DNA from: Pyxidicoccus trucidator
GTDB taxonomy: Bacteria > Myxococcota > Myxococcia > Myxococcales > Myxococcaceae
Assembly: GCF_010894435.1 (NCBI RefSeq)
Contig: NZ_JAAIXZ010000013.1
Span: 62,001 to 126,000 of the forward strand
Direction: 5' to 3'
Length of the DNA: 64,000 nucleotides
The position numbers were made by a program, and so were the translations under genes. Below the pieces are notes generated by a model. The model was not told the origin of the DNA, ran no database searches, and worked only from the letters and a program-made list of their open reading frames with translations. Positions 50,842 to 64,000 of this stretch are shown piece after piece; within the stretch, counting starts at the first letter, position 1, and every line of letters starts with the position of its first letter.

Positions 50842-51786
50842 GTGAACACCGCCCCCGCCATACTCGGCTGGATGACGTCGCTGGCCGACACGACACGGGT
50901 GCGCCTGCTGCGCCTGGTGGAGCGGCACGAGCTGACGGTGGTGGAGCTGTGCGCGGTGCTCCAACTTCCCCAGTCCACGGTGAGCCGGCACCTGAAGGTG
51001 CTCGCGGATGACGGGTGGGTGGAGTGGCGCCCGGAGGGCACCAGCCGGCTGTACCACATGGCGGTGGAGGGCCTGCCCCCGGCGGCCCGGCGCCTGTGGA
51101 CGCTGACGCGCGAGCAGATGTCCCAGGTCATCGCCGCCGAGCAGGACGACCAGCGCCTCGCCCCCGTGCTCGCCGAGCGGCAGAGCCGCAGCCAGGCCTT
51201 CTTCTCCACCGCCGCGGGCAAGTGGGACAAGCTGCGCCGCGAGCTGTTCGGCGAGCGCTTCGACGTGCTCGGCCTGCTGGCCCTGCTGGAGCCGACGTGG
51301 CGCGTGGGCGACCTGGGCTGCGGCACCGGGCAGACGTCGGAGATGCTGTCGCCGTACGTGCGCAGGGTCATCGCCGTCGAGTCCTCCGCGGCCATGTTCA
51401 AGGCGGCGAGGGCCCGGCTGGGCAGCCTCACCAACGTCGAGCTGCACCGGGGTGACCTGCACGCGCTGCCCGTGGACGACGGCACGCTGGACGTGGCGCT
51501 GCTCCACCTGGTGCTGCACCACGTGGCGGAGCCGGCGGCCGTGCTGGCGGAGGCCGCGCGAGCGCTCGTGCCGGGCGGCCGCATCCTCCTCATCGACATG
51601 CAGCGGCACGAGCGCCGCGAGTATCAACAACAGATGGGCCATGTCTGGCTGGGCTTCGAGCCGGAGCAGCTCACCGGCTGGCTCACGGACGCCGGCTTCA
51701 CCGACGTTCGCATCCACCCCCTCCCCGCGGCTGCCGAAGCCAAGGGGCCCGCGTTGCTGTCCGCCGTGGCGGTCCGCGGAAGCTGA
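50842..51786 (+). CDS. ArsR-family regulator fused to methyltransferase-like domain (SahR-like)
   Basis: 314-aa regulator. The N-terminal ArsR winged helix (residues 1-95) has [50 protein letters not shown]. Residues of about 150-314 form a class I methyltransferase fold ([49 protein letters not shown]). This fusion matches SahR, the regulator of S-adenosylhomocysteine and methionine metabolism, whose methyltransferase-like domain senses SAH. The gene lies 40 bp before ahcY, which fits. GTG start at 50842. Catalytic methylation is not excluded. Confidence 0.85.
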
Positions 51787-51826
51787 AGCAGCATCTGAAA
51801 CCCGTAGCTTTCCATTGGAGTCGAAG

Positions 51827-53305
<1,479 letters not shown>

Positions 53306-54097: not shown

Positions 54098-56314
54098 TCA
54101 ATGTGTCGGGCGGTTGCGGCCGTAGGCCTGTTCGAGAATCGCGTCGCTCCCGAGGCGGCTCTCCTTCGCGGCCTCCACGTCCAGGCCCTCGCCGTGGCCG
54201 CGCCCGCGTCCCTCGAACACGATTCCCGCACCGTCGAACGAGGCGGTGCGCGGGCACGACGGCAGCTTCAGCCCCGAGCGCAGCAAGTCGCACGGCAACG
54301 AGCCCGCCGACTCGAACGTCGAGTCACCCTCCGTCCGCGTGAGGATGTACCGCGCACGCCCGCTCTCGAAGCGCAGTGACACCAGCGAGCGCCCCACCAG
54401 CCCCTCCACGTCCACGCGCGGGCGCACTTCCCGCCACGGCTCCTGCCCGCCCTGCGAGAACAGCAGCCACTCGTCCCACTTCAGTGGCGGCAGCCCCACT
54501 GCCTTCGCCTCGTCGCGCTGCACGCGCACGGTGCCTCGGAAGGCCTGACAGTGCGTCGTGTCGCAGACGGCGCGGCCCGGGTGCCGGCTGTGCCGCTCGT
54601 TGTGCGCAATCACCCGCGCCAGCGCCACGCGCGCTTCACCCTTCAGCGTCACGTCCTCCGCCACCACCACGCCCGCCGTGTATTGCAGGCGCGTGGTGCG
54701 GAACACGAAGTCGGAGCCCCGCCGCGCCTTCATCGCGCTCGGCGTCGTGGGCACGCCCGGAGGCGGCCGGTACGGCGGAGGCGGCGACCACGTGAAGACA
54801 CCCGCGTAGTCCCGTCCCTCGGGCAGCTTCGGAAAGCGCACGCGCCAGGGAGCTCCCAGGCACACCGCCGCGCCACCTGACGCGAGCCCCTCCAGTCGCG
54901 TCCACTCCGTCGGCGCGGCGCGTGGCGTCCCACCGTCCACCGCGAAGCCCGCGCCCGGGCACTGCGCCTCCACGTCCCTCGCGGGCATCAGCCCTAGCAC
55001 CTGCACACGCGCGGCCTCCAGCCCTGCCTGACGGCGCGCGCGGAACAGCAACTCCGGAATCTCCTGCGCGAAGTGTCGCGGCATCTTCCCCGGCCGCACC
55101 GCCACCAGCACCAGGTCCGCATCCACCGCCGCAATCCAACCGAACTGCGGCCGGCTCGCGGCATCTCTCACGGTGCCCGTCTTGGTGGCCACGCCCGCCA
55201 GCGCCTTCGACGCGGGCAACTCCGACAGCGTGCCGCGCGCCGCGTTGTCCCCCATCAGCGCCACCACGGCCGGCCGCGCCTCCGCCAGCAGTCGGTACGC
55301 CTGTGCCATGCCCCACGGCGACAGCGCCAGAGTGGAGCGCAGCCCAATCGCATCCGCCATGTCCGTCGGAGTCCCCGTCAGCCCCACCGCCTGCAGCACG
55401 GGCCCCCACGCGCCGAACGCCCTCGGCGCCGTGCCCGTCGCCGCCCAGTCCATGAAGTACCCGTTGCACGAGCGCAGCAGCGCGGTGCGCGCGTCCACCT
55501 TCGCGGGCAGGCCCGGCCCACAGGCCCACTCCTGCACGCCCGCGCGCGGCTTCAACACCGGATGCTCCGCTGCCGCCGCGTACACGAAGGGCTTCAGCGT
55601 CGAGCCATAGGGCAGCGCGCGCCGCACGTCGCCCTCCGACAGCAGAACCTCGCCCGAGTGCCGGCTCAGCACCACCGTGGTCGGCGCAGCCGCGCGCACC
55701 TCCACTCCCGCCAATTCGTCGATGGTCAGCGGCGCTACCCACCGCCCCCCGTCCTGGCACTGGCGCAGCCGGCGCGACAGCGCCTTGGGAAACCCCACCG
55801 ACTCGTTCAGCAGCCGCGCCAGCGCCCGCCGCGCCCGGGGCGTGTCCACTGCCGGAGCCGACGCCACCTCCGACGCCGCGCGAGTCAGCGACTGGTAGGG
55901 CGAGTCCCGCCACGCCTCCAGCTCGCCGCTCACCGCGACGGAGAAGGCCTCGTGAAACAGCCGGTCCTCGCTGGCCTGCGGACAGGCCCACCAGAGGAAC
56001 TGGTGCGCCAGCTCGTGCCGCAGCGCCACGCGCAGGCGCTCGTCCAGCACGCCCGGCGCGTTCTGCCGCAACTCCACCCGGCCCGGCCGGCCCTGCGCGT
56101 TGCGCTCGGGGGCCAGGGCCGTGCCGCGCTCCAGGAGGATGGTGCCCGGAGCCTTCGCCGGAGCCGTGCCGGCCTCCGCCACGTACCGGGCCTCCAGCGC
56201 CCTCCAGGCGGAGTCCGCCTCGCGGCGAAGCTCCGCCTCGGGCGTCACGTCACCGCGCGTGACGAAGGTGGGGGTGGCCGCGAGCACCGCGGCCACCGTG
56301 GCGGCCCACAGCAT
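54098..56314 (-). CDS. yfaQ: YfaQ/DUF2300-like protein with metallopeptidase, transpeptidase and SpoIID-like motifs
   Basis: 738-aa exported protein, last gene of the macroglobulin operon, in the place of E. coli yfaQ (DUF2300). Short signal peptide. Residues 100-104 read HELAH with a downstream Glu in RLFHEAF, a zinc-peptidase pattern. Residues of about 210-430 carry all three penicillin-binding transpeptidase motifs: S238TLK, S282CN and K378TG. Towards the C-terminus RVIAHNERHSRHPGRAVCDTTHCQAF and GRGRGHGEGLDVEAAKE resemble SpoIID lytic transglycosylases. The combination suggests peptidoglycan chemistry in the periplasm. The gene begins 3 bp after the macroglobulin stop. Activity of each part is untested. 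Confidence 0.78.
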   Translation of the reverse strand: MLWAATVAAVLAATPTFVTRGDVTPEAELRREADSAWRALEARYVAEAGTAPAKAPGTILLERGTALAPERNAQGRPGRVELRQNAPGVLDERLRVALRHELAHQFLWWACPQASEDRLFHEAFSVAVSGELEAWRDSPYQSLTRAASEVASAPAVDTPRARRALARLLNESVGFPKALSRRLRQCQDGGRWVAPLTIDELAGVEVRAAAPTTVVLSRHSGEVLLSEGDVRRALPYGSTLKPFVYAAAAEHPVLKPRAGVQEWACGPGLPAKVDARTALLRSCNGYFMDWAATGTAPRAFGAWGPVLQAVGLTGTPTDMADAIGLRSTLALSPWGMAQAYRLLAEARPAVVALMGDNAARGTLSELPASKALAGVATKTGTVRDAASRPQFGWIAAVDADLVLVAVRPGKMPRHFAQEIPELLFRARRQAGLEAARVQVLGLMPARDVEAQCPGAGFAVDGGTPRAAPTEWTRLEGLASGGAAVCLGAPWRVRFPKLPEGRDYAGVFTWSPPPPYRPPPGVPTTPSAMKARRGSDFVFRTTRLQYTAGVVVAEDVTLKGEARVALARVIAHNERHSRHPGRAVCDTTHCQAFRGTVRVQRDEAKAVGLPPLKWDEWLLFSQGGQEPWREVRPRVDVEGLVGRSLVSLRFESGRARYILTRTEGDSTFESAGSLPCDLLRSGLKLPSCPRTASFDGAGIVFEGRGRGHGEGLDVEAAKESRLGSDAILEQAYGRNRPTH

Positions 56315-56317
56315 GGG

Positions 56318-59300
56318 CTACAGGTCGCCCGTGCCCTTCTTCGAGGGCACCACCTTCAGCGAGGCCGGGGCTGACCGCCCGTGGATGCTCGCGGCGTACA
56401 TGTCCTCGATGCGCGCGGGAGGCGCGGAGAAGGTGCCCGGGAACTGCGCGCGCAGCACGTAGCCCACGGTGCGCGGGCTGTTGCTCCACCACGCCGGCTC
56501 CTCGAAGAAGAAGGTGGCGCGCTCCGGGTCCAGCACGCGGCGGCGGAGCGCCTCGGGGACCAGGGGCAGCGAGTGCGGAGGACCGCGGAACGCCTTGTCC
56601 TCCTGCAGCGCGACGAAGCCCGCGGGCACCGAGTCCTCCACCACGTAGTACGCCGAGCGCACGCGGCTCTCTCCGCGCGCATCCAGCGTCAGCTCCACGT
56701 AGACCTCCTCGCCCTGGGACACGGTGTCACCCGCCTCCAGCTTCACCTTCCCGCCCTCGCGCAGCACGTAGTAGCTGCGCTGGATGGACATGCCCTCCGC
56801 CTTCGGCTGCACCGCCGACAGCGGAGTGAGCGTGGTGGCCTGCAGCGTGGCCACGCCGTCGAAGCCGCCCACGTCCACCGTGCGCGTCCCCGGCTCCAGC
56901 ACCGCGACGAGGCCCATGCCGCGCGGCGAGAACTTCACCGCGCTCTTCACACCCTTCACCTCCGGCGGCGTCATGCCCCGGAAGGCCTTCGCGTCGCGCT
57001 CCAGCAGCCACAGCGAGTGCAGCAGCGCGGTGCTCCGGTCGAACGTGGACAGGTCCGGCTCGGACAGCATCTCCAGGATGCGGCGGCGCGCGCGGGTGAG
57101 GTCCAGCGTGCCGAAGGACGCGGCATGCGCGGCGATGGCCGTCATGCCCACGCGGCGCAGCGGGAAGCGGAAGAACGCCTCGGACATCTCCATTTCCTGG
57201 CCCGGCTTGTACGCGGCCAGCTTCGCGAAGCCCTGCGAGCTCTGCGACACCAGCGAGTTGATGCGGGCCTGGAGCGCGGGCTCCTTCATGATGCCCGCCT
57301 TCTCCGCGGCCAGCACCGCCAGCGCCAGCGGGTACAGCTGCCCGCCTTCCGCGCCTTCCACCAGCGCGCGCACGCGGGCGGCCTGCTTCGGCCCCTCCAG
57401 CCGCGCCAGCACGTAGGCACGGGTGGCCTCGTACTCGGGCGGCAGGCCCTCCTGCGCCTCCAGCCAGCGCGAGCTGTCGATGATGCGCGGGTCATTGCGG
57501 TCCACCAGCCCCGCCTCCGCCGCGTAGGCCAGGCCGTCCAGGGCGATGAGCGTCAGCGGCAGGCTCGGCGTGTCGTAGCCGCCAAACCAGGTGAAGCCGC
57601 CGCCCTTCACGGAGAGGTTGAGGATGCGCGCGGTGCCCTGCACCGAGCGGCTGCGCGCCTCGGCCAGCAGCGCCTGCGTGTCCGTGTCCAGCTTCGCCAG
57701 CGCGCCCGCCTGCTGGAGCACCTGGTACACCGCCACGTTGGGCACGGTGGTGGACACCAGTTGCTCCAGGCAGCCGTACGGGTACGTGAGCAGCTCGCGC
57801 ACGTTGGAGAGCGCCGCGTCGACAATCGACGGCTGGAGCACCAGCTCCACGCTTGCCAGCGTCGCCTCCTTCGGGGCCGGCACCTCCAGCGCGCCGCCGC
57901 CCCAGGCGCTCACCTTCACGGTGTCCTCCACCGCGGCCGGCTCCACCTGGAAGGACTTCCGGTCCTTGAGCGGGTCCTTGGCGCCCGTCACGTCCACCGT
58001 GAGCTGCGCGGCGCCCGTGCTGGTGGCCTTCAGCGTCACCGGCACCACCTTCTCTCCGCCCTTGGCCAGCTCCACCTTGTGCTGCGACTGGTCCGCCTTG
58101 AGCGAGCCCAGCGACGCCAGCTTCACGTCCAGCAGCTGGCTGCCCGGGGACTTCTCGCCCGCGGACAGGCGCACCGAGGCGAGCGCCTCGTCACCCTCGC
58201 GCAGGAACTGAGGCAGCGCGGCGTAGAGGTTGAGGCCGCCGCGCGTGGCGAACTCGGAGGTGCCCTCGCCGAAGCGGCCGGACGTGTCCGCCGCCACCGC
58301 CGTCACCACCCACAGCGTCTGGTTGGAGGGCAGCGTGAAGCGCACCGTGGCGCGGCCGTCCCGGTCCGTCACCACCACCGGGTCCCAGTGCGCGGTGTCC
58401 TTCTCCAAATCCTTCGCCTGGCGGCTGGGCGGTTTGATGGACGCGAAGGCATGGTCCGGCAGCCCCGCCATCTTCCGCGCCAGCTGCTCGCCGTAGCCGT
58501 AGCCCTGGAACTCGGAGGAGTAGAAGTTCGTCACGTTGTTGCGTGCCGGCGGGTAGAAGAAGTCCAGCACCTTGGGGCGGAACTCGGTCTGGATGGCGTA
58601 GACGGCCTTGTCCACCACGCCCACGGACAGCTGCGCCACGACGCCGCGGCCCTCGTGGTCCACCACGCGCACGTCCAGCGTCTGCTCGGTGAGCGGCGGG
58701 GCCTCCACGCGACGGGGCTGCACCTCCACCGTGAGGGTGCGCTCACGCGGCACCACGCGGAACGCCACCGTGCGCTCCTCCCAGCGGCCCGTGGCCGTGG
58801 GGTACGCGACGGACGCGTACACCGCGCTGCCGAAGCGCTTCTCCACGCTGAAGCTGTGCACCAGCGTGCGGCCCTTCAGCTCCACCACCTGCGTGTCATA
58901 AAGGCTGGCGCCCGCGAGCGTCACCCACACCGGGCCCGCATCACGGCCGCCGGGGCCCCAGCCGTCGGGCATCAGCGCCACCAGCCGAGCCGTGTTGCCC
59001 GGCTCCAGCACGCCGGACAGCGACGCCAGCGTGAGGTTGGGCACCTGCGCCACCGGCTCGTCCGCGCCGCCGATGACGAGCAGCGACTCCTCGCCCTCCC
59101 ACTTCTCGCCCTTCTTGTCCTTCACCACCACGCGCGCCAGCACCGCGCCCACGTCGGACGTGGGCACCTTCTCGCGGTGCGTGCCGTCCGCCGCCGTGGT
59201 GAACGAGCGCTTGCCCAGGCTCTTCTCCTCGCCGTCCGGCTTGCGCGAGAAGAACTCCACCTCGCCCTGCGTGACGCCGTAGGGCTTGCCGGACAGCGTG

Positions 59301-61039
59301 GTGGCGCGCACCGACAGCGTCGCCTCGCCGCCCTTGGCCACCACCGCGTCTGAGTACCGCGCCACACCCAGGACTTCGACCTTGGAGAGGAAGAAGGCGG
59401 TGGTGGAGTTGGCGAACGTCTCCTGGTCATCGCGCGCGCGGATGGTGAGCGAGTACCGGTACGGAATCCGCTCCTCGCCCGCGGCCAGCGCCGGCACGGC
59501 CACTTCGATTTCCGCCTCGCCATTCACGTCGAAGGCGCTCGCGCTGGACCACGGGTCCTCGGTGGCGTCGCGCGCGGCGACGGAGGAGTAGAGCCGCTCG
59601 GGGACGCTCAGCTTGCCCTCCGTGCTGGAGCCCGAGCCGTACGTCACCGCGCTGCCCTGACCGCCCTTGCCGGCGTCATCCACCCACGCGGGCGCGTCCA
59701 GCAGGCTGCGGTAGAGGAACACCTCGTACTTCGCGCCGTCGGGCGTGCCACCGGCGTAGCGGCGGGCGCGCACCTTCACGCGCAGCGTCTCGCCGGGCAC
59801 CACCGTCTCCGACGCCGGCTCCACCTCCAGATAGAACGTGGGCTTCACGTAGTCCTGCACGCGGGCCTCGCCCTGGTGCGGCTGGCCGTCGACTTCGGCC
59901 TCCACGCGCAGCACGCCGGTGCCCAAATCATCGGGCACCTTGAGCGTGCCGTGGAACGCGCCGAACTCGTCCACCGGAGCGCGCGTGCTGAGCGCGCGGC
60001 CTTCCTGCGAGATGAGCTTCACCGTCACCTCGCGCTTCTTCGGAGTGAAGAGGCGCGCGAGGAAGGTGTCCGGCTGGCGCACCAGCCCGCGGTACTTCAC
60101 CTCGTGGCCCGGCTTGTAGATGGGCCGGTCGCTGTAGATGAACACGTCCGGCGCCACCGCCAGCGCGGAGTAGAAGTCCGTGTCCACAATCGCCGTGTCG
60201 CCGCCCGCCGAGGCCGTGGCGAGGATGCGCGGCTCGGACACCTCCAGCGTCACCTCACCCTTGGCGTCCGTCGTCCCCGTCGGGCCCTTGCCCTTGGGCA
60301 GGTACACCTGCACCTGGGCGCCCGCGCGCGGCTTCTGGTCTCTTCCCGCCACGCGCACCAGCACCTCGCCGTCGGTCTGCTTCAGCTGCACCGTCAAGTC
60401 ACTGACGACGAGCACCACCTGCCCCTCCACCCGCCCCTGCACGAGTTGGAGCACGTAGGTGCCGGCCGGCAGCGGCGCGAGCACCACACGGCGCTCCTGG
60501 AAGCCGCTGCTCTCGCCGCCGGTGTTGAAGCCGGGGACGTTGAACTCGCGGTCCGCGCCGCCCAGGTCCAGGTTCAGCCACTGGCTGCGTGCCACGGTGA
60601 AGCCCGGGGGCACGCCCACCAGCTTCTTTGGCCCTTCGGCCACCTTGGCCAGCGGCTCGCCCGAGCCCGGCACGTCCGGCGGCTTGGGCAGCACGTCGCC
60701 CACTTCCGAGCGGAAGGACGGGTTGAGCGTGTCGAGCAACCACATGCCCGGCGCGCTGACGGCGTTGAGGCCCCGGCTGAGCGCGCGGCCCGGGTTGTTC
60801 AGCGTCGGCGGCGTCTGGTACGCGCGGCGCAGGTCACCCTGCGCGCGGATGAAGGCGTCCAGGTTGTCCGGCTTGAGGACGCGCAGCTCCACCGGGCCCT
60901 TGTCCTCGAAGGCCACGTCCACCGCGACGGGCTCCTGGCTGCCATAGGAGCGGGGCACGGTGATGTAGAGCGGCTTGGCGGCAGCCACGCCGGACAGCAC
61001 CAGCGCGGCGAGCGCCGCGAAACGAGCAACACTCTTCAT
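56318..61039 (-). CDS. yfaS: Alpha-2-macroglobulin family protein (YfaS type)
   Basis: 1573-aa periplasmic protease-trapping protein related to animal alpha-2-macroglobulin. Signal peptide MKSVARFAALAALVLSGVAAA without lipobox Cys, so it is soluble or tethered by partners. MG domains fill the first half (VFIYSDRPIYKPGHEVKYRGLVRQP marks the MG1-MG3 type). The thioester motif is present as YPYGCLEQ with Cys1090, followed by the helical toroid thioester domain and a C-terminal receptor-like domain. On cleavage of the bait region the thioester would bind the attacking protease. Its start overlaps the DUF2138 stop by 4 bp (ATGA). Confidence 0.92.
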   Translation of the reverse strand: MKSVARFAALAALVLSGVAAAKPLYITVPRSYGSQEPVAVDVAFEDKGPVELRVLKPDNLDAFIRAQGDLRRAYQTPPTLNNPGRALSRGLNAVSAPGMWLLDTLNPSFRSEVGDVLPKPPDVPGSGEPLAKVAEGPKKLVGVPPGFTVARSQWLNLDLGGADREFNVPGFNTGGESSGFQERRVVLAPLPAGTYVLQLVQGRVEGQVVLVVSDLTVQLKQTDGEVLVRVAGRDQKPRAGAQVQVYLPKGKGPTGTTDAKGEVTLEVSEPRILATASAGGDTAIVDTDFYSALAVAPDVFIYSDRPIYKPGHEVKYRGLVRQPDTFLARLFTPKKREVTVKLISQEGRALSTRAPVDEFGAFHGTLKVPDDLGTGVLRVEAEVDGQPHQGEARVQDYVKPTFYLEVEPASETVVPGETLRVKVRARRYAGGTPDGAKYEVFLYRSLLDAPAWVDDAGKGGQGSAVTYGSGSSTEGKLSVPERLYSSVAARDATEDPWSSASAFDVNGEAEIEVAVPALAAGEERIPYRYSLTIRARDDQETFANSTTAFFLSKVEVLGVARYSDAVVAKGGEATLSVRATTLSGKPYGVTQGEVEFFSRKPDGEEKSLGKRSFTTAADGTHREKVPTSDVGAVLARVVVKDKKGEKWEGEESLLVIGGADEPVAQVPNLTLASLSGVLEPGNTARLVALMPDGWGPGGRDAGPVWVTLAGASLYDTQVVELKGRTLVHSFSVEKRFGSAVYASVAYPTATGRWEERTVAFRVVPRERTLTVEVQPRRVEAPPLTEQTLDVRVVDHEGRGVVAQLSVGVVDKAVYAIQTEFRPKVLDFFYPPARNNVTNFYSSEFQGYGYGEQLARKMAGLPDHAFASIKPPSRQAKDLEKDTAHWDPVVVTDRDGRATVRFTLPSNQTLWVVTAVAADTSGRFGEGTSEFATRGGLNLYAALPQFLREGDEALASVRLSAGEKSPGSQLLDVKLASLGSLKADQSQHKVELAKGGEKVVPVTLKATSTGAAQLTVDVTGAKDPLKDRKSFQVEPAAVEDTVKVSAWGGGALEVPAPKEATLASVELVLQPSIVDAALSNVRELLTYPYGCLEQLVSTTVPNVAVYQVLQQAGALAKLDTDTQALLAEARSRSVQGTARILNLSVKGGGFTWFGGYDTPSLPLTLIALDGLAYAAEAGLVDRNDPRIIDSSRWLEAQEGLPPEYEATRAYVLARLEGPKQAARVRALVEGAEGGQLYPLALAVLAAEKAGIMKEPALQARINSLVSQSSQGFAKLAAYKPGQEMEMSEAFFRFPLRRVGMTAIAAHAASFGTLDLTRARRRILEMLSEPDLSTFDRSTALLHSLWLLERDAKAFRGMTPPEVKGVKSAVKFSPRGMGLVAVLEPGTRTVDVGGFDGVATLQATTLTPLSAVQPKAEGMSIQRSYYVLREGGKVKLEAGDTVSQGEEVYVELTLDARGESRVRSAYYVVEDSVPAGFVALQEDKAFRGPPHSLPLVPEALRRRVLDPERATFFFEEPAWWSNSPRTVGYVLRAQFPGTFSAPPARIEDMYAASIHGRSAPASLKVVPSKKGTGDL

Positions 61040-62643
61040 GACCCGAAACCTCCAGGAACCAGCGAATCGCCCTGCACGGTGCCGCGCAGGCCCAGGTACG
61101 GCAGCGACTCCAGGTCGCGCCGCGCCGCTTCGATTTCAGGGGGCGCCGCATTCGGCATCGGCGCGTTGCGCCCCACGCGGGACTCGGACAGGAAGCCGTC
61201 CATGGTGAGGCCGCTGAGCAGCCGTCCCGTATTCACCCCAAAGGCCACCGACGTGGGCGCGCGCAGCCCCGCCACCACCGGGCCCGCCGCGTTGAGCAGG
61301 TTGGGTGTCTTGCCCTCACACGCCTTGCGCAGCCGGTCCAGCTCGGCGGGGTTGGACGCCATCACCACGTGGTTGCAGAACTTGTCGGCCACCAGCCGGT
61401 TGTAGCCTCCGGAGAACAGCCCCTCCAGCGCGGCCCCGTCCTCGGTGCGGCCCCACAGCACGGCCATCTCCAGCGGCAGCGCCGAGTCCCCGCGCGGCGT
61501 CCACACCAGCGCCACCTGGCGCGTGCGCGTGGCGCCCTTGCCTCCGCCTTCCTTCCAGAACTCGCTCAGCGTTTCGGGCTCCAGCGACTCCGGCAGCTTG
61601 AGCTGGAGCGCCAGCAGCACCGGCGTCTCCTCGGGCACCAGCTTGAGCAGGTCATCGGACAGCGGCGCCGCGTCCAGGCGCGCGGGGCCATCCATGAGCT
61701 GGCCGGCGATGCCTCGGCCCACCAGCTTGTTGCCCTCCACGCCGAACTGGAGCCGCGCGCCCGGCGCGAGGCCGACGATGCTCGTCAAGAGCTGCACCTC
61801 GCGGCCGTACGCGTCCGGGTCGAAGCCCAGCTCCACGTCGACGTTGTCCGCGGCCTCCAGCGCCGGCAGCTCGGCACAGAGGCCCTGGAGCACCGCCACC
61901 GGGTGACGCGCCAGCACCATCCGGTCCGCCGAGCGCCCCGCCCACAGCGTCTGCTCCGCCACCAGCCAGCGGCTCATCTCATGCGTGCCGGGGACGCCGC
62001 CGGGGCAGCTCTCCGCCTTCATGCCGCCGCGGTTGGCCACGCCGTCCAGCGCGTCGAAGGCCGCCGTGGTGGTGTCTCCCGGCTTGGGGAGGATGAAGGC
62101 CGGCGTGCTCGCGCGCGCGTCACCGGCGAACCACACCACGCGGAACGGCGCGTCCAGGAGCTGGTTGGCGACGAGGTCCAGCACCGCGCCCTTGAACTCG
62201 CCCTTCAGGTCCTCGCCGGTGGAGCCGAGGAACGCGGCCCACCCGCCCACGAAGCCCTGGCCCAGCGGCTTGCCGAGCTGCTCCTTGAGCCACGCGTTGC
62301 CAGCCATCGCCTCGCGCACCTTGCCGGGGTGGTGCACGTCTACCCAGATGGCGGAGGGCGCGGAGGTGCCGGGCACCTCCATGGTGGTGACCTGGGTGTC
62401 GGGCATGCCCTCCACCTCGGCGCCCGCGCTGGCGGGGCCCGTTCGCTCACCCGTGACGAGCAGCGCGCCACCACCCGAGCCACCGGACTTCGCGCCACGG
62501 CGGCCCAGGAGGAAGCCTCCCGCGACGGCGGCGCCGACGAGGGCGGTGATGAGGCCGATGAGCATGGCCTTGGGAGGACCGCGCCGGGGAGGCGGGGCCG
62601 CCGGAGGAGGCGTGCCCGGAGGCGGGCTCGACGGAGACGTCAT
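61036..62643 (-). CDS. yfaA: DUF2138 protein (YfaA-like)
   Basis: 535-aa inner-membrane-anchored protein of the DUF2138/YfaA type, always linked to YfaS macroglobulins. A Pro-rich cytoplasmic stretch precedes one membrane helix (PKAMLIGLITALVGAAVAGGFLLGRRG), and the rest is periplasmic. The periplasmic part (about 95-535) shows WVDVHHPGKVREAMAGNAWLKEQLGKPL, RVVWFAGDA and SRWLVAEQTLWAGRSADRMVLARHPVAVLQGLC. No enzyme motif seen. It may hold the macroglobulin at the membrane. ATG 62643 overlaps the DUF1175 stop (ATGA). Confidence 0.8.
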   Translation of the reverse strand: MTSPSSPPPGTPPPAAPPPRRGPPKAMLIGLITALVGAAVAGGFLLGRRGAKSGGSGGGALLVTGERTGPASAGAEVEGMPDTQVTTMEVPGTSAPSAIWVDVHHPGKVREAMAGNAWLKEQLGKPLGQGFVGGWAAFLGSTGEDLKGEFKGAVLDLVANQLLDAPFRVVWFAGDARASTPAFILPKPGDTTTAAFDALDGVANRGGMKAESCPGGVPGTHEMSRWLVAEQTLWAGRSADRMVLARHPVAVLQGLCAELPALEAADNVDVELGFDPDAYGREVQLLTSIVGLAPGARLQFGVEGNKLVGRGIAGQLMDGPARLDAAPLSDDLLKLVPEETPVLLALQLKLPESLEPETLSEFWKEGGGKGATRTRQVALVWTPRGDSALPLEMAVLWGRTEDGAALEGLFSGGYNRLVADKFCNHVVMASNPAELDRLRKACEGKTPNLLNAAGPVVAGLRAPTSVAFGVNTGRLLSGLTMDGFLSESRVGRNAPMPNAAPPEIEAARRDLESLPYLGLRGTVQGDSLVPGGFGS

Positions 62644-63227
62644 GGCATCCACTCCTTGAAGCGGAAGAAGCCGAGGAAGCCGGCGTTGTTCGGCACCGGG
62701 CGCCACTCCAGCGGCGCCTCGGTGGCAAGGTTGTGGAGGAGTCCGGTGCGCACCGCGGCGCCCTTCTCCCCCGGGTGGTAGACGACGCGAGCGGGCGCGT
62801 GGGCCCGGTCCTCCGGGCGCACCACCAGCATCAGGTGGAAGACGGTGCCGGAGTCGTGCTCCTGGCGGAAGGCGAGGATGTCGCCCGTGCGCAGCGCCTC
62901 GCGCGTGGCGTCGTCACGGCCCAGCGGCGTGAAGCTCTGGCCGAGCAGCGTCTCCGCGTCCGCGAAGTCCGAGGGCTGGCCGCGCTCGTTCTTCCACAGC
63001 GGGGTGGCGAGCCGCTCCGGGGCGACATTCTTGTACGCGACGCGGTAGGCGAAGCGGATGAGGCCCGCGCAGTCGCGCTGGTCCGGGTGCCATGCGGCGT
63101 CCTGCTTGCGAAGCTGCGCGAGCGCCACGCTCGCCACGTGCCGCCGCAGCAGCACGTCGCGCGTCTCGGGCGCGGGCGCCGCGGGTGCGGTCGCCTCCAG
63201 CAGCAGGAGCAGGGACAGGGCGAGCAT
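62640..63227 (-). CDS. yfaT: DUF1175 protein (YfaT-like)
   Basis: 195-aa exported protein of the DUF1175/YfaT family, second in the visible part of the operon. Signal peptide MLALSLLLLLEATAPAAPA. The sequence around RDCAGLIRFAYRVAY (Cys53) and GDILAFRQ...VFHLMLVV (His131) resembles the Cys and His sites of NlpC/P60 peptidoglycan endopeptidases, so it may cut cell-wall peptides. That is inference from motif alone. Its stop overlaps the DUF2138 start by 4 bp, and it starts 33 bp after the DUF2135 stop. Confidence 0.82.
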   Translation of the reverse strand: MLALSLLLLLEATAPAAPAPETRDVLLRRHVASVALAQLRKQDAAWHPDQRDCAGLIRFAYRVAYKNVAPERLATPLWKNERGQPSDFADAETLLGQSFTPLGRDDATREALRTGDILAFRQEHDSGTVFHLMLVVRPEDRAHAPARVVYHPGEKGAAVRTGLLHNLATEAPLEWRPVPNNAGFLGFFRFKEWMP

Positions 63228-63260
63228 GGGGGTGTGGGGACGCCGGTGGAGGCGCGAGCC

Positions 63261-64000
63261 TCAGTAGCCTTCGCCTTCGCCGCCGCTGTCGCCGCTGGTC
63301 TGAAGCTCCTTGAGGGCCTCCGCCAGGTTGGTGGGCCAGTCCGGGTGCTTGGGCTTGGGGTCCTGCGCGGGCACGTACACCTCGGCCTGTCCGTCGCCGA
63401 GCACGTTCACCCAGGCCAGCACGCGGGTGGTGCCCGGGGTGGCCAGCGGAATGCGCACCATGCGGCGGATTTCGTTCGGCGTGCCCTCGAAGAGCGCGAG
63501 GTTGAGGGTGGCCACGGTGTGGGCCTTGTCGCCGCTGGGCCAGTAGTTGGTGGCCACCAGGTACACGCCCTTGGGCGGCGCGCGGTGGATGTAGAGGTAC
63601 GGGCCGTAGGCGGGCTGGTCGAAGTCACCGCCCTGCTCGTTGAGGAAGAAGGTGCCGCCGGAGGGGCTCTCGGTGTCGGCCCAGTACACGTGGGCCATCT
63701 CCCCCACCTGGAGCTGGTCACCGGCCTCGCTGGAGTCGGTGGGCTCGTAGATGTGCAGGTCGGTGTAGACGCCGTCGGTGTCGCTGGTGAGGACGACCTT
63801 GAAGGGGACGGGCGGAATCTGCGCGTAGCTCGTCGCCTGGGTGCGCGCGGTGCCGGCCTGGTTGGTGGCCATCACCGTGACGATGTTCTTCCCGCTGGCG
63901 GCGGGGAACTTGCGGCTGAAGCGACCGCCGTAGGTGCGCATGAGGTAGCGGTCGCCGTTGATGGAGACCACCACCGGGTCGATGGTGGTGTCGCTGATGG
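63261..64000 (-). CDS. yfaP: DUF2135 protein (YfaP-like), N-terminus cut by window edge
   Basis: 246 codons of the C-terminal part are visible. The sequence has a strand-rich start (PVVVSINGDRYLMRTYGGRFSRKFPAASGKNIVTVMATNQAG), then VPFKVVLTSDTDGVYTDLHIYEPTD, HVYWADTESPSGGTFFLNEQGGDFDQPAYGPYLYIHRAPPKGVYLVATNYWPSG. This is the DUF2135/YfaP pattern of periplasmic proteins with an Ig/VWA-like fold that travel with YfaS macroglobulins. First visible gene of the operon; the start lies beyond position 64000. Confidence 0.85.
   Translation of the reverse strand, partial: ISDTTIDPVVVSINGDRYLMRTYGGRFSRKFPAASGKNIVTVMATNQAGTARTQATSYAQIPPVPFKVVLTSDTDGVYTDLHIYEPTDSSEAGDQLQVGEMAHVYWADTESPSGGTFFLNEQGGDFDQPAYGPYLYIHRAPPKGVYLVATNYWPSGDKAHTVATLNLALFEGTPNEIRRMVRIPLATPGTTRVLAWVNVLGDGQAEVYVPAQDPKPKHPDWPTNLAEALKELQTSGDSGGEGEGY

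Follow-up and report, generated by a model that had tools for sequence, protein, structure and literature searches.

A Mag/Yfa-type macroglobulin operon in a Myxococcaceae genome, with a putative transpeptidase/SpoIID protein as its last product

Does the macroglobulin operon of Pyxidicoccus trucidator, a predator living in soil, serve as a shield against proteases, or does it look after the cell wall? The operon lies at the end of a 64,000-nucleotide stretch (G000:C13:62001-126000, i.e., contig NZ_JAAIXZ010000013.1 of a 12.67-Mb genome), the whole of which is called the window herein. A sequence-only reading had taken it for a complete yfa-type operon, encoding DUF2135, DUF1175, DUF2138, alpha-2-macroglobulin (A2M) and DUF2300 proteins that form an obligate complex and shield a predator that secretes many proteases. 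Our analysis shows that the operon is real, conserved and mostly of a known kind, namely a Myxococcaceae operon of the Mag/Yfa type, while its enzyme content and its thioester make it a distinct, testable variant. The idea of a shield against the cell's own proteases omits the strongest content of the locus, that is, the putative transpeptidase/SpoIID protein encoded by the last gene and the MagC-like DUF1175 protein, and this content speaks for a role in guarding or repairing the cell wall that goes beyond that of a protease shield. The operon would thus pair a protease trap of the kind known from animal immunity with proteins that resemble enzymes for cutting and stitching the wall.

The five genes form a single run on the minus strand, in the order DUF2135, DUF1175, membrane protein, A2M and last gene, and the presence of the A2M gene in one operon with DUF2135, a MagC homologue (DUF1175) and a YfaQ-class gene bears out the proposed relation to the Mag operon. 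Read directly from the sequence, the junctions are as first described, namely a 33-bp gap between the DUF2135 stop and DUF1175, ATGA overlaps between DUF1175 and the third gene (62640-62643) and between the third gene and A2M (61036-61039), and a 3-bp gap between A2M and the last gene. All five genes are indeed there, but the stretch does not hold the operon completely, as its end falls inside the DUF2135 gene, which continues for another 169 bp, up to a likely ATG at L007:14169 (contig C13:126169). The frame upstream of this gene is divergent, and the operon therefore begins at DUF2135, without magA; a scan for sigma-70 promoters and terminators found none. A hydrophobic N-terminal stretch, either signal peptide-like or transmembrane, is present in all five proteins. 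As for the five family names, hidden Markov models (HMMs) from Pfam uphold A2M, whose bMG10, MG2, A2M, TED and bait domains each exceed the cut-off, as well as DUF1175 and DUF2135, which exceed it too (E 1.4e-6 for the latter), whereas DUF2138 and DUF2300 are left without a match.

What, then, is the product of the last gene? The DUF2300 label has to be rejected: the protein does not match PF10062, nor does anything in the 195 genomes of the phylum (0/195), while E. coli YfaQ, the positive control, matches it with E 2.8e-91. The 738-aa protein gives weak Pfam matches to penicillin-binding protein (PBP) transpeptidase and SpoIID models, and NCBIfam gives both too. Searched with Foldseek, its AlphaFold2 model (pLDDT 87.9, pTM 0.79) has 147 matches in the PDB with E <= 0.001, led by PBP1b (E 5.2e-8, prob 1.00), and in VIA-align the segment 206-430 superposes on PBP2/PBP3 (Z 20.4, rmsd 3.0 over 216 residues). 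What is more, the SxxK, SxN and KTG motifs accompany this fold. In an alignment of 31 last-gene proteins (the one from the window and 30 of the 39 found), reaching down to 42% identity, H100-E101..H104, H121-E122, S238..K241, S282..N284 and K378-T-G-T are identical in all 31, and SxxK, SxN, KTG and HExxH motifs are signs of activity. Farther down the chain, E553, C584, D585, H588, C589 and Q590 are identical in 30/30 sequences that reach there, the window protein reading CDTTHCQ at 584-590 of its SpoIID-like region, and the glycines and histidine of GxGHGxG are identical in 29/29 (GRGHGxG at 704-710). The family profile matches the SpoIID structures 5i1t, 5txu and 4rwr with E values from 0.0094 to 0.045, and PF08486 is reached at E <= 0.1 by 21 of the 31 members, with 0.0011 as the best value. 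The HExxH region is a motif-level call, with single weak matches to BSP and SprT among the family members. Judging by motifs and model, the last protein is thus a predicted transpeptidase/SpoIID protein with an HExxH motif, and one whose enzymatic activity we infer. By identity of this protein, the closest named relative is Pyxidicoccus caerfyrddinensis (89%).

The same protein can be linked to YfaQ. Namely, the N-terminal region of E. coli and Citrobacter YfaQ aligns to the transpeptidase domain of the window family (hhalign 88.8%, E 2.5e-6), and E. coli YfaQ has a SpoIID match over the Pfam cut-off, with SxN and KTG replaced by SCG and KTW. That YfaQ resembles a transpeptidase plus SpoIID has already been published (PMC12282094). 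A domain permutation, with HExxH at the N end here and at the C end in YfaQ, is not claimed, as the motif alone aligns (hhalign 0.5%). A second Mag operon, found in four related genomes (L089-L092), encodes last proteins that are all close homologues; the two of the four that were scanned are over cut-off for PF00905 (1.1e-26, 94.1 bits) and PF08486 (2.4e-24), and hhalign joins this protein to the window family over both domains (98.2%, E 5.4e-14). No HExxH was found in the last protein of L092. Homologues of the SpoIID part only occur at L095 9720-10715 and L101 7479-8786, with no DUF1175 or Mag A2M nearby; the one in L101 still has the opening residues of the transpeptidase domain, which looks like what a deletion of the rest would leave.

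The DUF1175 protein is the one member for which the comparison with Pseudomonas Mag proteins was made at the sequence level, a profile search finding P. aeruginosa MagC (PDB 7bk8; Table 1). DC53, H131 and YH151 are invariant in 17/17 DUF1175 sequences (13 from operons of this type, three from other types, and YfaT), and in the profile alignment to 7bk8 the MagC chain has the same Cys and His residues. Through this homology, the protein has both the catalytic residues and the fold of the NlpC/P60 class, any activity of that class being putative. MagC is reportedly NlpC/P60-like and said to interact with peptidoglycan, if one goes by the title of Zouhir et al. 2021. The last gene and DUF1175 alike direct attention to peptidoglycan, in line with the published phenotype of magD towards the type VI secretion system (T6SS) (PMC12663445). 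Far from Proteobacteria, the control genome of Thermotoga maritima also has a DUF1175 match over cut-off.

The macroglobulin itself does not fit the scheme of two types, in which Type I combines a thioester with pbpC, and Type II combines the lack of a thioester with mag genes. PMC5764988 gives CXEQ as the thioester motif and describes it as missing from P. aeruginosa MagD and from Type II A2Ms. The window A2M has CLEQ, as in Type I, and no PBP1C stands beside it; a thioester within a Mag operon breaks the scheme. CxEQ is present in 38 of the 39 A2M frames from 42 loci, the exception being a 260-aa fragment, and in all four A2Ms of the second Mag operon, while Citrobacter YfaS has PYGGVI at the thioester site. 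In a tree of 18 A2Ms, with several long branches and no firm place for YfaS, E. coli YfhM groups at 100/100 with the two A2Ms of this genome that are linked to PBP1C, and the window A2M falls outside their clade. Replacement of a Mag A2M by one of the PBP1C type is not favoured by the tree, with YfaS placed only loosely in it. A third, divergent A2M-DUF1175 locus lies at L093 5157-10468 (G137), with an A2M that has no CxEQ.

Five further MG2 macroglobulins are present in the genome, on C18, C7, C1, C10 and C21 (L096-L100). Those on C18 and C7 are followed by PBP1C (Transgly, Transpeptidase and BiPBP_C domains), as in E. coli yfhM-pbpC, and a PBP transpeptidase domain adjoins A2M in 3/6 A2M loci of the genome, so the coupling of A2M and PBP recurs; at C1, C10 and C21 no PBP was found among the part of the neighbours that was scanned. 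The A2M on C1 is split into the frames L098 8299-12039 and 5855-8323, with a 25-bp overlap, and several relatives also have frames of only about 1030-1250 aa around an MG2 match.

Is the operon inherited as a unit? Among 147 genomes of the class, the last gene is matched in 77, DUF1175 in 74 and neither in 70. All 74 genomes with DUF1175 lie within the 77, and the three others are G012, with a marginal match, and G122 and G123, with the SpoIID piece only. The co-occurrence is more than chance (Fisher p 6e-39, a value overstated as the genomes are related). What is more, all five genes stand in the same order on one strand in 31/42 loci, in one of which (L125) the contig stops within the last gene, the remainder of which is in L136. 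Of the other 11, nine have one to three genes, on short or end-cut contigs, and two have the SpoIID piece only. The order recurs in 20 further genome regions, one being cut by a contig end and one having A2M in two frames. The expected co-occurrence in other genomes and the conserved gene order were therefore both found, and strict co-inheritance with a fixed order fits the obligate multi-protein system that had been proposed. Two of the five family names fail the HMMs. A record titled Comamonas sp. KCTC 72670 (L107) has a Myxococcus-like operon (77% identity) and is probably a mislabelled or contaminated assembly. A complete yfa operon lies on the mobilizable IncFIB/IncFII plasmid NZ_CP134684.1 of Citrobacter portucalensis (L144).

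The second of the failing names is DUF2138, given to the third gene. Its product has no Pfam match, and PF09909 is matched by 0/27 members of its family, while E. coli YfaA, as positive control, matches with E 1.4e-291; with hhalign giving 0.1% against YfaA and Citrobacter DUF2138, the label was rejected. The protein agrees with the DUF2138/MagB class in size, slot and membrane anchor only, the last being one N-terminal transmembrane helix by hydropathy, where hydrophobicity peaks at residue 49 in the longer GTG frame. With its AlphaFold2 model (pTM 0.76), 0/337 Foldseek matches in the PDB reach E <= 0.001. TP0453 as a fold match (best VIA Z 5.9) is too weak for use, and DUF3352 provides no bridge between this protein, its counterpart in the second operon (PF11832, E 4.8e-7) and YfaA (hhalign 0.4% and 1.5%).

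Table 1. Genes of the operon, in window coordinates
Product	Position	Strand	Features
DUF2135 protein (MagF/YfaP-like), first gene	63261..64000, on to C13:126169	(-)	302 aa total; signal peptide-like start; Ig-like region; PF09906 and PF09136 over cut-off
DUF1175, MagC-like, NlpC/P60 (papain-like) fold, predicted	62640..63227	(-)	signal peptide-like start; Cys53, His131, His151; PF06672 E 4.7e-30; MagC 7bk8 E 5.5e-47
Membrane-anchored protein, DUF2138/MagB slot	61036..62643	(-)	ATG 62643 overlaps DUF1175 stop; longer GTG frame to 62706
Alpha-2-macroglobulin, 1573 aa	56318..61039	(-)	signal peptide-like start; thioester YPYGCLEQ, Cys residue 1090
YfaQ/MagE-like three-part protein, 738 aa (P0001)	54098..56314	(-)	HExxH region; PBP transpeptidase-like 206-430; SpoIID-like ~536-731

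Compared with known systems, the operon shares with P. aeruginosa Mag (magABCDEF, PA4492-PA4487) an A2M, DUF1175/MagC, a YfaQ-class protein, a membrane protein in the MagB slot and tight packing; PA4491 and PA4488 are magB and magE in PMC5764988, and YfaA and YfaQ in a table of PMC10977779. It differs from Mag in having five genes, no magA and another order, in an A2M that keeps CxEQ, in a MagB-slot protein whose homology to the YfaA class cannot be recognised, and in the HExxH at the N end of the last protein. E. coli yfaA-yfaT-yfaS-yfaQ-yfaP has the same functional set, and its YfaQ likewise has transpeptidase-like and SpoIID-like parts (PMC12282094), with a C-terminal HEYLH; however, the gene order is different, as had been noticed from the start, the YfaQ motifs are degenerate, and YfaS of Citrobacter is without CxEQ. 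Type I A2Ms with PBP1C are similar in pairing a thioester A2M with a PBP transpeptidase, but PBP1C is a glycosyltransferase-transpeptidase without SpoIID, and their clade leaves the window A2M outside. The second Mag operon also has DUF1175, a thioester A2M, DUF2135 and a PF00905+PF08486 protein, and differs in its order, namely DUF3352-like protein, DUF1175, A2M, DUF2135 and transpeptidase plus SpoIID protein.

What could these parts do together? We give somewhat better than an even chance to a Mag-type envelope guard in which the trapping of proteases is tied to remodelling of peptidoglycan, because the parts encoded in the myxobacterial operon resemble those of Mag in kind and have their motifs intact. 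The secreted thioester A2M would trap proteases in the periplasm, probably held together with the membrane-anchored subunit, the MagC-like peptidoglycan-binding protein and the multi-domain enzyme, and the last protein would in principle be able both to cross-link (PBP-type) and to cut (SpoIID-type) peptidoglycan. Against an attacker that breaks through the wall by means of proteases and peptidoglycan hydrolases, the complex would both inactivate the protease and remodel or mend the adjoining wall. Also in favour of this reading are the phenotype profiles of E. coli lacking yfaQ, which lie near those of mepS, mepK and nlpI deletions (PMC12282094), the protection that magD gives against VgrG3 and Tae1 (PMC12663445), and the recurrence of A2M beside PBP1C in the genome. 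The observed gene order, domains, invariant catalytic motifs, thioester motif and co-inheritance are the ground of this proposal. That a complex forms would follow by analogy with P. aeruginosa, where MagD, located at the inner membrane, binds MagA, MagB and MagF (PMC5764988), and enzyme activity, the coupling of trapping to remodelling and a role in defence are likewise conjectured. That said, several points weigh against an envelope guard. The activities of all subunits are putative, PF00905 scores 14.6 bits for the window protein, under the gathering score of 22.1, PF08486 is also under the Pfam cut-off, and the DUF1175 family has been called inactive (PMC10318531). MagE has been reported to be cytoplasmic and to form no stable complex with MagD (PMC5764988), and magD gives no protection against the T6SS of B. 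thailandensis or against TseH (PMC12663445). Finally, SxN and KTG are gone from E. coli YfaQ, and still a phenotype results when the gene is deleted (PMC12282094), and so catalysis may not be the point.

Could the system, then, be a plain protease shield after all, in which the function rests with A2M, while the last protein assists maturation or acts as a chaperone and its enzyme folds are vestigial? We regard this as rather unlikely, even though deletion of magE alters MagD processing and MagE has been proposed as a chaperone or processing factor (PMC5764988), the active site of E. coli YfaQ is degenerate, and the thioester is kept in every A2M frame but the fragment. Namely, SxxK, SxN, KTGT and HExxH, invariant in 31/31 proteins down to 42% identity, are hard to explain in a vestigial fold, and the magD phenotype concerns peptidoglycan effectors, MagD protecting against VgrG3 and, to a limited extent, Tae1 (PMC12663445). 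Quite unlikely, in our view, is a module for wall growth or morphogenesis of vegetative or fruiting cells, with no part in defence, where A2M would guard the enzyme or its site from the cell's own proteases. Such a role would agree with E. coli lacking yfaQ, whose cells are wider across conditions (PMC12282094), and with an operon confined to part of the class (77/147 genomes); its absence from 70/147, on the other hand, argues against a core growth function, and in Pseudomonas the mag genes are GacA-regulated along with T6SS genes (PMC12663445). A beta-lactam sensor or resistance device, in which the serine-enzyme domain senses or binds beta-lactams, is highly improbable, for while Foldseek does match OXA-57 and OXA-45 (prob 1.00), the 50 highest VIA Z rows are PBPs, the domain is fused to a SpoIID-like part, and no regulator or signalling part is seen in the protein.

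A bolder version of the envelope guard, which we consider unlikely as it stands, is that the myxobacterial operon represents a fully armed Mag form. A thioester A2M would be wired to one protein that combines the active centres of a zinc peptidase, a DD-transpeptidase and a SpoIID lytic transglycosylase, and to an NlpC/P60 partner, so that cleavage of the bait by an intruding protease would switch on local wall remodelling, and gammaproteobacterial Mag/Yfa would be decayed forms from which the thioester and the active site of the PBP domain have gone. Be that as it may, the mechanism by which Type II operons protect against peptidoglycan toxins is stated to be unresolved (PMC12663445), and the partner genes are a candidate answer. 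The myxobacterial version keeps active-site motifs that are lost in E. coli and is for this reason the better test bed. The word macroglobulin is absent from the main text of PMC12282094, transpeptidase and SpoIID are unmentioned in the text of PMC12663445, and a literature search by title and abstract for myxobacteria or Myxococcus with macroglobulin found no relevant paper.

Outside the operon, the frame at 51452-53305 encodes an adenosylhomocysteinase of 617 aa, whose AdoHcyase match starts at residue 140, which suggests either a long N-terminal extension or a wrong start.

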